A DNA stretch of 37,276 nt from a virus: positions 1 through 37,276 of IMG/VR virus record IMGVR_UViG_3300039106_000139; one strand, 5' to 3'. A program made the translations under genes and the position numbers. Numbering within the stretch: the first letter of the stretch is position 1; every line of letters begins with the position of its first letter. Under the pieces are notes generated by a model, which made no database searches, was not told where the DNA came from, and saw only the letters and a program-made list of their open reading frames with translations. Positions 23,841 to 37,276 of this stretch are shown here, piece after piece.

Positions 23841-24467
23841 ATGACATTCTCTCTAGTAAACTTACCTTCAGTCACAACATTATCAACCGCTTTACGTGCG
23901 TTAGAACAAGATGTACCCGCCGCAGGTGTTGCCATTCTAAAAATGGACAAAACCGGGCACTGGGTGTTTGGTGCAGATCAAACAGAAGTTGAAGATGACG
24001 CAACATGGGCAATCAATCCGTTCTCTTTCGTGCATGGCTTTATCGCATGGGGTGACGGTGAAGTATTAGGCGAAAAGATGGTATCCGTATCATCACCATT
24101 GCCTGAACTTGAAGTCGCGCCGCCTAACGCTAAACGTGGTTGGGAAACGCAAGTCGGTATGTCACTCAAATGCTTATCAGGTGAAGACAAAGGTTTAGAG
24201 GCTCGCTTCTCTACCACTTCAGTCGGTGGCAAACGTGCTGTACAGGCGTTAGCAGTCGCAATCGCAACACAAGTAGATGCAAATCAAACTAAGCCAGTAC
24301 CCGTTATCACATTAGGTAAAGAGCATTACCAACATAAAGCGTATGGTCGTATCTTTACCCCCGTCTTTGATATTAAAGAATGGGTGTCAATGGATGGTGG
24401 TGAAGCCCCTGAAGCAGAAGCTGAAGAAGCGCCTGCTGGTGGCAGACGTAGACGTGCAGTAGCATAA
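23841..24467 (+). CDS. replication-associated protein, possible ssDNA-binding
   Basis: A 208-residue protein in the position usually taken by ssDNA-binding-type proteins (such as DUF2815) in phages with DUF2800 and Pol A genes. It has KMDKTGHWVFGADQTEVEDD, WAINPFSFVHGFIAWGDGEVLGE, GLEARFSTTSVGGKRAV and KAYGRIFTPVFDIKEWVSM, a pattern conserved in phage proteins beside Pol A. The C-terminus is acidic then basic (EAEEAPAGGRRRRAVA), unlike the purely acidic tail of classical SSB. Binding of single-stranded DNA is inference from place and fold-like pattern. It overlaps the polymerase start by one base. Confidence 0.65.
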   Translation: MTFSLVNLPSVTTLSTALRALEQDVPAAGVAILKMDKTGHWVFGADQTEVEDDATWAINPFSFVHGFIAWGDGEVLGEKMVSVSSPLPELEVAPPNAKRGWETQVGMSLKCLSGEDKGLEARFSTTSVGGKRAVQALAVAIATQVDANQTKPVPVITLGKEHYQHKAYGRIFTPVFDIKEWVSMDGGEAPEAEAEEAPAGGRRRRAVA

Positions 24468-26404
24468 TGATACTGTGGGTTGATTTTGAAACCCGTAGCC
24501 ACTGCGACCTAATCAGTCGTGGTGGTTATAACTACGCGCAAGACGCAAGCACTGAGGTGTTATGTATGTCTTATGCGTTTGACGATGGTGACGTTACTAC
24601 ATGGACACCTGACCAACCGTTCCCTGATGAAGTACGCAACTTCACAGGGCAGATACGCGCTCATAATGCTGCGTTTGAACGGCTAATCTTTTGGTATGTG
24701 TTACAGATTAACTTTGACCTAACCCAATTCTATTGCACCGCTACTCAGGCGCGTGCTAACTGCTTGCCTGCATCACTAGAGGACATAGGGCGAGCCTTAT
24801 CCAGTAATATGCGTAAAGACCACAGAGGCAAGCAACTTATCCGCCTCATGTGCATACCGCCCTTCAGCACTGACCCTAAGCTCATGGCTGAGATGATTGA
24901 GTATTGCGAGCAAGACGTTAAGGTCATGCGGACTATCTCAGGCGCGATGCGTCAGCTATCCGATGACGAGCTGGCTGACTACCATGTGAGTGAGCGCATC
25001 AACGACAGAGGCATACTAATAGACGTGCCACTAGCTAAGAGTGCTATCCAATATGCAAGCGCGGAGCTAGAAGAAATACAAGCGCTAGTGGCTGACATTA
25101 CGCAAGGTGAGATTACAAGCGTTAGATCGCCTAAGATGCGTCAATGGGTGCAAGACCGCGTAGGTGAAGAAGCACTCAAGCTCATGTGGAACGGTGAGAA
25201 GTATTCAATAGACAAGACAGTCAGGGCTAACTTGTTAGCACTGGCGGAGGAAAACCCTGATGAAGTACCGAATGAAGTCGCGGATGTTATCCAATCCGCC
25301 GATGATTTATGGGCGAGTTCGGTTGCGAAGTTCAACCGACTATCTCAGCTTGCTGACGAAGAAGATTACCGCCTCAGAGGGGCGTTTGTCTTTGCAGGCG
25401 GTAGCGCTACTGGCCGCGCGGCTAGTTACGGAGCGCAGATTCACAACCTTACGCGTAAGTGTGCTAAAGACCCTGCGGAAGTAAGGCAGGCGATGGTGCG
25501 CGGTCACTCTATCGTACCTAAGTTTGGCAGACGCATTACCGATGTGCTTAAAGGTATGTTGCGCCCTGCGATTATTCCTCCGCCTGGCGAGGTTTTAATT
25601 GTTGCGGATTGGGCGGGCATTGAGGCAAGAGTAAACCCTTGGATGTCCTTAGAGCGTGGCTCAGAAGCTAAATTAGATATATTCCGCACAGGTGGCGATG
25701 TATATGTCGCTAATGCGATGGCTACATTTAATTGTACTAAAGAAGCCGTAACGCCTGACCTTAGACAGCGGGGTAAAATTCAAGAACTCGCGCTAGGTTT
25801 TTTAGGTGGGCTAGGCGCGTTTGCAGCGATGGCGCGTATATACAATATCCAGTTACCTGAATCTGAAGCTAAACGCATGGTAGACGGGTGGCGTAAGGCT
25901 AACCCTTGGGCTATCCCGTATGGGCAAGCAGCGGAAACTGCATACCGTAGGGCGTTACGCAATAAAGGTAAAGAGTTCACGGCAGGGCGTTGTGTATTTA
26001 TGTATGACGGCGTTCACCTATGGTATTCGCTACCTTCAGGTAGGATTTTATGCTATCCGTATGCTAAGTTTGAAGGGGATGATGTCACGTATGTGAAAGC
26101 ATCATGGAAACCTGCGGCGGATGCGAAAGAATGGCCTAGAGCGCGGTTATGGCGAGGGCTTTTTATTGAAAATGCGTGTCAAGCAACAGCTAACGATATT
26201 CTTAGACATTCATTACGTATATTAGATGCGGAAGGCTACGCTATTACAGCGCATATTCACGATGAAATTATCGTGCAATGCCCTGCTAATCAGGCTGAAG
26301 CAGTAATGGCTAGAATGACTGAAGTTATGTGTACGCCACCTGATTGGGCGGCAGGGCTACCTTTAGATGTTGAGATAAAAAGTCATACTAGATACGGAAA
26401 ATAA
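24467..26404 (+). CDS. DNA polymerase, family A with 3'-5' exonuclease
   Basis: A 645-residue replicative polymerase. The exonuclease domain begins with D6-F-E8 (motif Exo I) and later DVKVMRTI-type residues. The polymerase motifs are A at ADWAGIEAR (D381), B at RQRGKIQELALGFLGGLGAF (K437) and C at HIHDEI (H598, D599, E600). There is no 5'-3' exonuclease domain, as usual for phage replicative Pol A enzymes. The region before motif A is shorter than in bacterial Pol I. It is coupled to the upstream gene and followed by an HNH endonuclease insertion. It probably works with the primase-helicase at 26999 and possibly the clamp at 29741. Confidence 0.95.
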   Translation: MILWVDFETRSHCDLISRGGYNYAQDASTEVLCMSYAFDDGDVTTWTPDQPFPDEVRNFTGQIRAHNAAFERLIFWYVLQINFDLTQFYCTATQARANCLPASLEDIGRALSSNMRKDHRGKQLIRLMCIPPFSTDPKLMAEMIEYCEQDVKVMRTISGAMRQLSDDELADYHVSERINDRGILIDVPLAKSAIQYASAELEEIQALVADITQGEITSVRSPKMRQWVQDRVGEEALKLMWNGEKYSIDKTVRANLLALAEENPDEVPNEVADVIQSADDLWASSVAKFNRLSQLADEEDYRLRGAFVFAGGSATGRAASYGAQIHNLTRKCAKDPAEVRQAMVRGHSIVPKFGRRITDVLKGMLRPAIIPPPGEVLIVADWAGIEARVNPWMSLERGSEAKLDIFRTGGDVYVANAMATFNCTKEAVTPDLRQRGKIQELALGFLGGLGAFAAMARIYNIQLPESEAKRMVDGWRKANPWAIPYGQAAETAYRRALRNKGKEFTAGRCVFMYDGVHLWYSLPSGRILCYPYAKFEGDDVTYVKASWKPAADAKEWPRARLWRGLFIENACQATANDILRHSLRILDAEGYAITAHIHDEIIVQCPANQAEAVMARMTEVMCTPPDWAAGLPLDVEIKSHTRYGK

Positions 26405-26516: not shown

Positions 26517-27002
26517 ATGAATCAACAAAGGCTTAAAGAGCTACTCAATTACGACCCTGTTACGGGCGTATTCACAAATACAGACCGTAGAAGTACGTCT
26601 GCTAGACCTTATCAAATTGCAGGTTCTTTGACAGACAAAGGGTATTTAACCACTTGGCTTGATAATAGACATTATAGGTTACATAGATTGGCGTGGTTGT
26701 ACGTATATGGATTTTGGCCTACTAAAAATTTAGACCATATAAATCAAGTTAAGTCAGATAACAGAATACTTAACTTGCGCGAAGCTACACCATCTGAAAA
26801 TATGCAAAATGTATCTAACTTTAGCCACAATACAAGCGGGCATAAGGGAGTTACATGGCATAAACAAGCAGGAAAATGGAACGCAAAAATAAAAATTAAC
26901 GGGCGCAATATTTCAATGGGTGTTTTTGATGATATTAATCAAGCCATAGCTGCGCGACAATTAGGTGAAACTATCTATCATACTCATGGGGTATCAGCAT
27001 GA
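26517..27002 (+). CDS. HNH homing endonuclease with AP2 domain
   Basis: A 161-residue homing endonuclease. Residues about 56-100 carry the HNH motif (LHRLAWLYVYGFWP, then NLDHINQVKSDNRILNLREAT with the D-H and N positions). Residues about 107-155 are an AP2-type DNA-binding domain (GHKGVTWHKQAGKWNAKIKI, then GVFDDINQAIAAR). These proteins spread by cutting alleles without the insertion. The polymerase gene upstream is intact and the primase gene starts in the stop of this one (ATGA), so the element is free-standing between the two genes, perhaps an invader of this junction. Confidence 0.9.
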   Translation: MNQQRLKELLNYDPVTGVFTNTDRRSTSARPYQIAGSLTDKGYLTTWLDNRHYRLHRLAWLYVYGFWPTKNLDHINQVKSDNRILNLREATPSENMQNVSNFSHNTSGHKGVTWHKQAGKWNAKIKINGRNISMGVFDDINQAIAARQLGETIYHTHGVSA

Positions 27003-29740: not shown

Positions 29741-30331
29741 TTATGCTGCTGCTTGCATAGGTACTGGTAGATCCAACCAAGCTGGGCGGCTTAAAGACTG
29801 CGGTAATTCATGTTTAAACGGCATTAATACGCCTATAACATTTTCGTCGGTAAACTTTACGAGTGCAGCGCTGCCGCTATTCTGTAGTACGCTTGCCTTG
29901 CCGCCGTTTATTAGCTTGCCAATTTTGTCAAAATCAACCAGGTACTCATTATTGAATTCATTGCCTTGTATGCCGCTTACTTTTTCAGGTATCACGCGCC
30001 TAAAATCAGGAAAGACGCCTTCTGTTAGCGATCCGCTTACATTTTGGCCCATGCTGGATAGCGTAACATTATGGCCGCCTATCGTAATATCTATTGTTGG
30101 CGCCTTAGTCTTAATAGCGGCTTCAATTAGCGCGCGCGGAATTAGCGCCTTGATGCCTTCGGCTTGCTCGTTTGGTAGATTGATACATAGCAATCTATGG
30201 CCATCCGTACTGGCGGCAATAATGCCGTTTGGTGTACTCTCAAAATGTACGCCGTTTAGATAATATCTAATATCGTTTTTAGCTGCACATAATAGCAGCG
30301 CTTTTAATTCGTTTGTTTTAATAGTAAACAT
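29741..30331 (-). CDS. miniature DnaN-like sliding clamp, 196 aa
   Basis: A 196-residue protein with clear signatures of the bacterial beta clamp: RYYLNGV (22-28), STDGHRLL (41-48), a strand-rich section with IPRALIEAAI, FPDFRRVIP (107-115), NNEYLVDFDKIGKL and MPFKH (170-174), the place of the MPMRL end of DnaN. The normal clamp has about 366 residues in three domains; here most of domain I and the first half of domain III are absent. It also has a 22-residue Pro-rich tail after the usual end. It probably raises processivity of the phage polymerase or redirects clamp-binding host proteins. Start 30331 follows GGGGC and the shared 13-base leader. Confidence 0.8.
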   Translation of the reverse strand: MFTIKTNELKALLLCAAKNDIRYYLNGVHFESTPNGIIAASTDGHRLLCINLPNEQAEGIKALIPRALIEAAIKTKAPTIDITIGGHNVTLSSMGQNVSGSLTEGVFPDFRRVIPEKVSGIQGNEFNNEYLVDFDKIGKLINGGKASVLQNSGSAALVKFTDENVIGVLMPFKHELPQSLSRPAWLDLPVPMQAAA

Positions 30332-30341
30332 ATAAAGCCCC

Positions 30342-30354
30342 TTAGATTAGATTA
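30342..30354 (-). promoter_or_regulatory. shared 13-base leader element, copy 2
   Basis: On the minus strand this reads TAATCTAATCTAA, 10 bases before the clamp ATG, identical in sequence and spacing to the copy at 22689-22701. TATAAC (30356-30361 complement) just upstream could act as a -10, without a good -35. Confidence 0.55.
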
Positions 30355-30361
30355 GGTTATA

Positions 30362-30406
30362 GCTAATTAAAATTAGCCGCTATGCTTACTGGTTAGAATA
30401 AGCATA
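30362..30406. promoter_or_regulatory. two palindromes before the clamp gene
   Basis: GCTAATT-AA-AATTAGC (30362-30377) is a perfect 7-bp inverted repeat, and TATGCTTA with TAAGCATA (30381-30406, 10-base spacer) is a perfect 8-bp inverted repeat. They lie between the acidic-protein stop and the clamp start. The first would sit between -10 and -35 of a promoter with TATAAC, so it may be an operator; the second could also act as a weak terminator for the gene upstream. Confidence 0.45.
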
Positions 30407-30415
30407 ACGAAAATT

Positions 30416-30754
30416 TTAGAATTGCTGGAATAAAAACTTATTATCTGAAGTTAAACCTATGAGCGCGGTATTATCTTGCAAATAATCAGTAACAACGCCT
30501 AATAAATCAGATTCTAAATCATCTTCGTCTGATTCAATAATGTTATATTGTGATAAAACTTCATCCAGTGATAACTCGCTAAAATCGCAGCATAAAGCGA
30601 TAACATCTAAATCATATTCGCCGCCAGAAGCGTCAGAATAAAAATCCTCTAGCCAATCAAATAGCAGGCCGAGGCCTTCATAACTAAATTGATTGCCACG
30701 GCCGCAAGCATGGAAGGCGTCGCGGAATTGAGATTGATTAATTGATTGTTTCAT
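30416..30754 (-). CDS. highly acidic conserved phage protein, 112 aa
   Basis: A 112-residue protein with about 23 Asp/Glu and only about 4 Lys/Arg. It contains QFRDAFHACGRGNQFSYEGLGLLFDWLE and ELDVIALCCDFSE-like YDLDVIALCCDFSE, a pattern I recognise from a widespread phage protein family of unknown function, ending LFQQF. A very acidic small protein expressed near the early promoter could mimic DNA and block host nucleases, but this is inference. GGTG nine bases before the ATG is the ribosome site and overlaps the stop of the tiny gene upstream. Confidence 0.75.
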   Translation of the reverse strand: MKQSINQSQFRDAFHACGRGNQFSYEGLGLLFDWLEDFYSDASGGEYDLDVIALCCDFSELSLDEVLSQYNIIESDEDDLESDLLGVVTDYLQDNTALIGLTSDNKFLFQQF

Positions 30755-31279: not shown

Positions 31280-31350
31280 TTATAAATTGTGCATTTTGGC
31301 CGCCAGGCTAATATCACTAGCAAAATGCTAAATATGGAATTGTTTAAGCG

Positions 31351-31419
31351 TGGCAATAGTGCCAATGTTTTATAAATGGCAATAGTGCCAATGTTTTATA
31401 AATGGCAATAGTGCCAATG
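31351..31419. repeat. 26-bp tandem repeat with inner palindrome
   Basis: Two exact 26-base units (31351-31376, 31377-31402) are followed by a 17-base partial unit (31403-31419). Each starts with TGGCAATAGTGCCA, a 5-bp inverted repeat with a 4-base centre, then an AT-rich part. A 10-base partial copy (TGGCAATAGT) lies at 31100-31109. The repeat length and palindrome fit protein-binding iterons rather than CRISPR, because there are no unique spacers. Confidence 0.75.
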
Positions 31420-36415: not shown

Positions 36416-37276
36416 CAGTAGTCGTTACCCATTCTACCTCGTCTGACGCTAGTTTTAGTGCTACAGGCGCGTCAGCGTGGGATGCCGAACACGTACTAGC
36501 AGGCGTAGGTACATTAGCAGAACAAAACGCTAATGCAGTAGCCATTACAGGCGGTACAATTAATGGTGCAACTGTAGGCGCGACTACTGCGGCGGCAGTT
36601 ACAGGCACAACGATTACAGCCAGTACAGCCTATAAAGGCACAAATTATGATGCCAATTCCTCAGCAGGCGGTAATTTACGAAATGCTAGTGGAACAGCGT
36701 GTATTCAATGGGGCGCTGGTGGAGGTACTAATGTCACCATAGGTGCAGCCATCAATATGAATGGTGCTAATGCCCATATTGAAATGTCACCGACAGGCAC
36801 AGGGCATGTGACTATCAATCCAACCGCAGTAGGCGACATGGATAACATGGTGATAGGGGCTACAACACCTAAAGCCATAACAGGCACTACGATTACAGCC
36901 ACTACGTTTAGCGGGGCAGGTACAAGCCTAACGGGTACAGCCTCCGCGTTGTCTATTGGCGGTAATGCTGCCACAGCAACTAATGGTGTAGTGACGACAG
37001 GCTCATATTCTAACCCTGCATGGCTACCTTCAGTAGCGCTTACAACAGGTACAATCACTACCGCACCAAGCTCAAGTACAGATATAGTCAATAAGTCCTA
37101 TGCGGATAGTATCGCAGGAGGTGTGAATTTTCATGCGGCGTGCCAATACGCAACTGCGGCGGCTTTACCTGCAAACACCTATAACAATGGTACAGGTGGT
37201 ATAGGCGCGACATTAACAGCTACGTCTAATGGCGCATTGACAGTAGATGGTACAGTTCAAACTGTTGGCAACCGCG
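36412..37276 (+). CDS. tail fibre protein, 5' part (continues at window start)
   Basis: The N-terminal part of the fibre gene that continues at base 1. Starting at ATG 36412 (ATGA overlap with the DUF5856-like gene), it is open to the window end and joins in frame to the 1-1421 part. The N-terminus TVVVTHSTSSDASFSATGAS is followed by repeated ITGGTIN, ITGTTITAT and SGAGTSLTGTA-type strands common in fibre shafts, and a NKSYADSIAGGVNFHAACQY segment, known from many phage fibres, near residue 225. Joined length is about 728 residues. It probably anchors at the neck or tail and contacts the cell. Confidence 0.85.
   Translation, partial: MTVVVTHSTSSDASFSATGASAWDAEHVLAGVGTLAEQNANAVAITGGTINGATVGATTAAAVTGTTITASTAYKGTNYDANSSAGGNLRNASGTACIQWGAGGGTNVTIGAAINMNGANAHIEMSPTGTGHVTINPTAVGDMDNMVIGATTPKAITGTTITATTFSGAGTSLTGTASALSIGGNAATATNGVVTTGSYSNPAWLPSVALTTGTITTAPSSSTDIVNKSYADSIAGGVNFHAACQYATAAALPANTYNNGTGGIGATLTATSNGALTVDGTVQTVGNR
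37178..37276. repeat. terminal overlap, right copy
   Basis: Bases 37179-37276 repeat 2-99 exactly; the first base of the 99-base pair differs (37178 C, 1 A). This marks circularity of the assembly; the fibre gene should be read across it. Confidence 0.9.

Follow-up and report, generated by a model that had tools for sequence, protein, structure and literature searches.

A short phage protein was found to be a bacterial sliding clamp (DnaN, or beta) reduced to domain II and the C-terminal half of domain III, in which the partner-binding pocket is kept and the parts needed for the usual ring are absent. It is encoded in a single virus contig of 37,276 bases, referred to as the window, by a gene at 29741-30331 on the minus strand (196 aa; ATG start at 30331, TAA stop). 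With a probability of about one half, this protein, called the mini-clamp hereafter, is a free-standing, probably monomeric partner-binding module derived from the bacterial sliding clamp, which competes for or hijacks the partners of the clamp.

Results

Homology to DnaN and half-domain map

The four motifs by which a preliminary description of this DNA had recognized a DnaN relative (RYYLNGV, TDGHRLL, FPDFRRVIP and MPFKH) were all found in the 196-aa ORF, and profile searches put the match to DnaN far past chance. Pfam PF02767, the central domain of DnaN, matched residues 12-109 (E 9e-14), and TIGR00663 (dnaN) was matched over its middle part. Beta clamps in the PDB were hit with E 6e-11 when the single sequence was used and with E 4e-33 when the family profile was used. 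A weak PDB match to IceA2 (E 0.03) was gone with the family profile and was dropped. When the mini-clamp family was aligned with a DnaN profile by hhalign, the match (E 3e-46) covered residues 127-366 of E. coli beta with one large gap, at 251-308.

Single-sequence searches (Pfam, PDB) detect only domain II in the mini-clamp. The family alignment and an alignment of 31 proteobacterial DnaN sequences (E. coli included) were split into half-domains, and all pairs were compared by hhalign. Each segment of the mini-clamp proved specific. Residues 1-55 (30167-30331, minus strand) matched only II-N (E 4.4e-22, probability 99.5), and residues 56-117 (29981-30166, minus strand) matched only II-C (E 7e-15). 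The third piece, residues 118-173 (29813-29980, minus strand), corresponds to III-C (E. coli 309-365); compared as residues 118-175, it matched only this half-domain, with E 8e-11 and a probability of 97, against a probability of 0 to III-N. For I-N, I-C and III-N of DnaN, the probabilities against the half-domains of the mini-clamp were below 2%. Residues 1-126 and 251-308 of E. coli beta have no counterpart in the mini-clamp, the second of these gaps falling just before the III-C piece, and PF00712 (DnaN domain I) was not found in the protein. The domain map proposed earlier, with domain II complete and domain I and the N-terminal half of domain III missing, was therefore exact. A first joint alignment by MAFFT had given III-N as the third module; this assignment was rejected, since the profile-profile comparison of half-domains gives III-C.

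Partner-binding pocket and DNA channel

According to a 2024 review, the pocket of E. coli beta is formed by R152, L155, T172, G174, H175, R176, L177, P242, R246, V247, N320, Y323, V344, V360 and M362-R365 (PMC11139829). Seventeen of these residues were used for the comparison; V344, which lies in an alignment gap, was left out. The mini-clamp is identical to E. coli at 15 of the 17 pocket positions and at 32 of 152 positions elsewhere (Fisher p 6e-8). Throughout the family, identity to E. coli was 0.81-0.82 in the pocket and 0.20-0.22 elsewhere, and conservation within the family was 3.4 bits for pocket columns compared to 1.7 bits for the others. Neither the subfamily nor the presence of a recognised polymerase in the carrier made a difference to pocket identity. 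To allow for ancestral conservation, only positions invariant in DnaN were compared. These were retained at 0.83 in the pocket and at 0.50 outside it (p 0.004), the latter value falling to 0.40 when the 148-157 loop and D173 were omitted.

The pocket positions are distributed over five stretches, all read from the minus strand: RYYLNG (residues 22-27, 30251-30268), which holds the equivalents of R152 and L155 with the adjoining loop; TDGHRL (residues 42-47, 30191-30208), which belongs to subsite I; FPDFRRV (residues 107-113, 29993-30013), with those of P242, R246 and V247; N127 to Y130 (29942-29953), equivalent to N320 and Y323 in subsite II; and V168-L-M-P-F-K173 (29813-29830), equivalent to V360 and M362-R365 at the normal C-terminus of a clamp. 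As far as the alignment tells, the pocket for clamp-binding motifs is retained in the mini-clamp.

Some other DnaN-invariant residues have been lost: K198 and E202 are retained in 0% of the family, K235 in 10% and R197 in 39%. In the beta structure, K198, K235 and R197 face the DNA channel. The net charge of the three inner helices averages +4.0 in mini-clamps, compared to +0.5 in DnaN, the extra charge being due to lysines gained at E. coli positions 148, 329 and 334. Since these helices are more basic than those of DnaN, some affinity for DNA is possible.

Predicted structure and the ring

An AlphaFold2 monomer model of the mini-clamp, made with a 97-sequence alignment, had a mean pLDDT of 95.1 and a pTM of 0.88. 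Residues 1-174 of this model superposed on residues 127-366 of E. coli beta with Z 18.0 and 2.1 A over 171 residues (VIA-align). From this superposition, the III-C half is predicted to occupy its native place beside domain II and to close the pocket. Peptide-bound clamps, for example 6fvl, are among the structures that superpose with the model. A tail-less relative of 170 residues (L171, of the Shigella phage EP23 type) gave a monomer model with pLDDT 95.7, Z about 14 and 2.5-3.2 A; in it, the channel helix of II-C is absent.

The dimer contacts of E. coli beta are I78, F106, I272 and L273 (PMC11139829). All four fall within segments that are absent from the mini-clamp, which bears out the earlier claim that the usual dimer is impossible. 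When 50 carrier genomes were searched for PF00712, none (0/50) was found to contain it; both a split clamp, with domain I encoded elsewhere in the genome, and a full clamp alongside the mini-clamp were rejected on this ground. Because the absent parts hold both sides of the beta dimer interface, and because 0/50 carriers encode domain I, the canonical ring cannot form. Several III-C positions that are hydrophobic in DnaN (M315, I317, V321, L325, L328, L331, L340 and Y359) have for the most part taken on polar or small residues in the mini-clamps, as expected if III-N has no substitute. Judged from residue identities rather than from coordinates, these positions would make up the face formerly covered by III-N. 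Taken together, the sequences and the models favour a monomeric pocket module over a ring.

C-terminal extension

Residues 174-196 (29744-29812, minus strand) lie beyond the normal end of a clamp and include P-A-W at 183-185. They had been described as an unusual Pro-rich extension of 22 residues. That the protein extends past the normal end stands; the extension is 23 residues long, it has a P-x-W besides its prolines, it is predicted to be ordered, and it is common to about two-thirds of the sampled family, being a trait of one of the two subfamilies. Tails of 12-61 residues past the normal end were present in 67 of 97 members, and the other 30 had 5 residues or fewer. P-x-W occurred in 32 of the 67 tails, always 7-11 residues in, compared to a mean of 5.9 and a maximum of 14 in 500 shuffles. 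In the window protein, R-P-A-W-L-D-L-P is predicted to be ordered, with pLDDT about 91 (block 181-190). Going by the model, the P-x-W tail probably caps, within the same molecule, the surface bared by the absent half-domain. Where tail-less members keep I317, L340 and Y359, those with a tail have residues that are small or polar. This correlation proves little, as the members with and without a tail form nearly two clades in the tree, with only 2 independent pairs, and ancestry confounds it.

Family, coding evidence and naming

The mini-clamp is not peculiar to the phage in the window; it belongs to a large phage family of constant architecture. By tblastn, 268 phage records matched it. Three scans of viral contigs, seeded with the family alignment, recognised 464, 477 and 532 relatives; the scans overlap, and the best 80 from each were retrieved. 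More than 220 complete homologues measured 165-249 aa (one had 292), and none was of clamp length. The bacterial matches retrieved from genome contigs with the same alignment were DnaN proteins of the usual 350-398 aa. In a tree built on the shared columns, all 97 mini-clamps were separated, by a branch with support 100, from 16 DnaN sequences, all of them proteobacterial. A homologue of 380 aa (L076) was considered as a fusion and rejected, since its additional length comes merely from a start codon further upstream in the same long open frame. In phage DSL-LC05, the corresponding position is occupied by a 226-aa gene that is no mini-clamp.

When the mini-clamp gene was compared with six relatives (about 69-86% identity), dN/dS was 0.08-0.16, and the gene is under purifying selection. 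The plus strand of 29741-30331 is non-coding and has many stops. A Shine-Dalgarno-like AAGGGG, read off the sequence, is present 6 nt 5' of the ATG (30338-30343, minus strand). Between the upstream gene and the mini-clamp, the leader contains a 14-bp hairpin (30377-30410, minus strand), whose match is terminator-like only and which is possibly a regulated terminator.

PHROG 3007 was matched by residues 1-174 with E 9e-33 (190-position profile), and all 60 family members that were scanned belong to it. The existence of this PHROG, the more than 220 homologues of similar length and the low dN/dS show that the mini-clamp is not a broken gene. PHROG 3007 is labelled 'RusA-like Holliday junction resolvase', and other records are named 'DNA polymerase III beta subunit' or 'DNA Pol III b subunit fragment'. 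In a Pfam search of the 97 members, PF02767 was found in 81, and the only other match was a stray one of low complexity. No RusA domain was detected in the window protein at E <= 1 or in the 97 members at 0.001, and identity as a RusA resolvase was hence rejected. In Bcep781, the genuine RusA is encoded by a gene separate from that of the mini-clamp. Mislabelled members include L008:9001-9582 and L011:8974-9510, and many RefSeq records are similarly affected. The searchable literature yielded no study, functional or structural, that deals with short phage clamps. The family itself is already in the databases under several names; what sets it apart from known sliding clamps is its make-up of half-domains together with a pocket that has been selectively kept.

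Genomic setting

In the window, the mini-clamp is part of a block of small leftward genes that separates the primase gene from the terminase genes. The same genome encodes a family A DNA polymerase (PolA; 24467-26404, plus strand), which is a candidate partner. PolA was recognised in 20 of 50 carrier genomes, to which phrog_17 added two short partial matches. Neither PolB nor PolC was found in the 30 PolA-less carriers, some of which may be incomplete. The coliphage Bas78, which is complete, has a helicase, a primase and an SSB, and a polymerase was not seen in it. Directly 3' of PolA is where the mini-clamp is found in Burkholderia phage BcepC6B (L007), Acinetobacter phage 4316 (L010) and their relatives. 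In Bcep781, EP23, Cornellvirus and Bas78 it runs opposed to the surrounding structural genes, either singly or within a short cassette; its place in Obolenskvirus is between capsid and tail genes. Members are also carried by plasmids, among them one of 188 aa by the conjugative Salmonella plasmid pLG26p2 (L315:1495-2061), and one of 224 aa by a 44-kb plasmid of P. aeruginosa (L316:2980-3654). A Pseudomonas megaplasmid (L314) has a full-length dnaN of 369 aa.

No consensus clamp-binding motif was found in the window's own proteins, PolA included. QLIQLF, present in the PolA of some carriers, is unlikely to be such a motif, as it is a conserved internal segment of the polymerase (QLIRLM in the window). 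PADLOC gave no matches for the mini-clamp and its small neighbours.

Some further features of the window were recorded. A small acidic protein of 112 aa (30416-30754; phrog_9974) has relatives that adjoin mini-clamps in 9 loci, and a DUF7249 protein recurs beside the mini-clamp in 10 loci. An HNH-like endonuclease ORF (26517-27002), perhaps a homing insertion, is placed between the DNA polymerase and primase genes, and its relatives occur near mini-clamps in 7 loci. Three head-to-tail copies of the palindrome TGGCAATAGTGCCA, 26 nt apart, are found at 31338-31419; this intergenic array, which precedes both the leftward block and the terminase genes, is operator- or iteron-like. One coding sequence, YNNGTGGIGATLTATSNGALTVDGTVQTVGNR, recurs at the two ends of the window (1-about 100; about 37175-37276), so that the contig probably represents a whole genome that is circularly permuted.

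Discussion

In the mechanism we propose, the two kept walls, domain II and III-C, would form a pocket for clamp-binding motifs (QLxLF-like peptides). With this pocket, the mini-clamp would bind, off the DNA, such motifs in host proteins, candidates being the alpha subunit of Pol III, the delta subunit of the clamp loader, Hda, MutS/MutL, repair polymerases and ligase. By competing with the host clamp or by diverting its partners, it may act as a decoy or an adaptor and so redirect replication and repair in the infected host. Partners from the host are the more likely ones, since pocket retention is independent of a phage polymerase; the finding that the window proteins have no consensus motif points weakly the same way. 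The affinity of Pol III delta for a monomeric beta mutant is about 50 times that for the dimer (PMC11139829), which makes a monomeric pocket a plausible strong competitor.

Some observations weigh against a strong decoy. Recognised PolA is missing from 30 of the 50 carriers, none of these 30 has PolB or PolC, and a conjugative Salmonella plasmid carries a member. Carriers that apparently need host Pol III would be harmed by a strong decoy for its partners, and the effect has therefore to be mild, timed or selective. Outright blocking of Pol III is thus unlikely; better candidates are the diversion of partners, action at a late stage, or competition that is selective. The placing of the gene directly after PolA in some phages would better fit a part of the replisome than a decoy, and the charge of the inner helices makes DNA binding conceivable. 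As to its history, our tentative view, held with somewhat less than even confidence, is that a clamp was stripped long ago to its pocket and that the product, now present in hundreds of phages and on some plasmids, spread as a dedicated hijacker of proteins with clamp-binding motifs, which mimics the docking site and never encircles DNA.

The same placing and charge would suit a processivity factor that forms no ring, in which a monomer would bind DNA directly and use its pocket to tether a polymerase, namely the phage PolA in those carriers that encode it. There is a precedent in herpesvirus UL42, a monomeric PCNA-like factor that binds DNA (PMC11229320), and the gene order in BcepC6B, Acinetobacter phage 4316 and their relatives, together with the lysines gained on the inner helices, agrees with such a function. 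We nevertheless consider it rather unlikely. Most carriers have no recognised PolA and the pocket is retained regardless of PolA; the DnaN-invariant channel residues K198 and K235 are lost, and R197 partly so; the EP23-type member has no II-C helix; and no consensus clamp-binding motif occurs in the window PolA or in other PolA neighbours, save the doubtful QLIQLF. Encirclement of DNA by an unusual small ring, in which several mini-clamps are joined by new interfaces (e.g. III-C to III-C', in four copies), is improbable. Clamp half-domains are pseudo-symmetric, and four times 1.5 domains equals the six domains of the beta dimer; yet the III-C surface needed for pairing with another half-domain is now polar, the conserved channel residues are lost, and the ordered tail predicted for the window protein may cover the open face.

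The pocket could also serve as a sponge that soaks up SocB- or RipA-like toxins released during infection, since SocB and RipA act on this same hydrophobic pocket of DnaN (PMC12795458). The frequent position of the gene as a lone cassette among structural genes, outside the replication operon, speaks for this; but no linked defence or toxin gene was seen and PADLOC was negative on the protein and its small neighbours, and we consider this explanation improbable. That the mini-clamp is a decaying remnant without function, as its shortness relative to DnaN and the annotation 'fragment' in Bcep781 might suggest, is contradicted by the purifying selection, by the constant length and architecture of the complete homologues and by the near-invariant pocket, and is scarcely credible.

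As far as is known, phages that attack the host replisome do so by binding the clamp or its loader. If the reading as a free partner-binding module is true, a phage copy of the clamp's docking site would represent the reverse strategy, and the protein would be a natural soluble reagent for clamp-binding motifs. The protein also poses the question of how small a functional part of a clamp can be, evolution having here split the pocket from the ring. The question is testable at once, because E. coli phages that are easy to work with (EP23-like dhillonviruses and the BASEL phage Bas78) carry members of the family. On the practical side, a large PHROG and many RefSeq records bear a wrong name.

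The mini-clamp shares with PHROG 3007 the full-length profile match, a length of 165-250 aa and the architecture of domain II plus III-C. With bacterial DnaN it has in common homologous domain II and C-terminal half of domain III, a near-identical partner pocket and the same predicted fold; it differs in being about half as long and in having no domain I, III-N, dimer interface or conserved channel lysines. Like UL42, it is a viral protein of the clamp fold, and UL42 forms no ring (PMC11229320); UL42, however, is of the PCNA-like lineage, with a known polymerase partner and demonstrated DNA binding, whereas the mini-clamp is of the beta lineage and is known from sequence and model. Gp168 of phage Twort is a clamp inhibitor that binds the DNA channel of the clamp (PMC11139829). 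Both it and, in the reading proposed here, the mini-clamp are phage proteins aimed at the host clamp system, but Gp168 binds the clamp, while the mini-clamp resembles the clamp itself and would bind the partners of the clamp.
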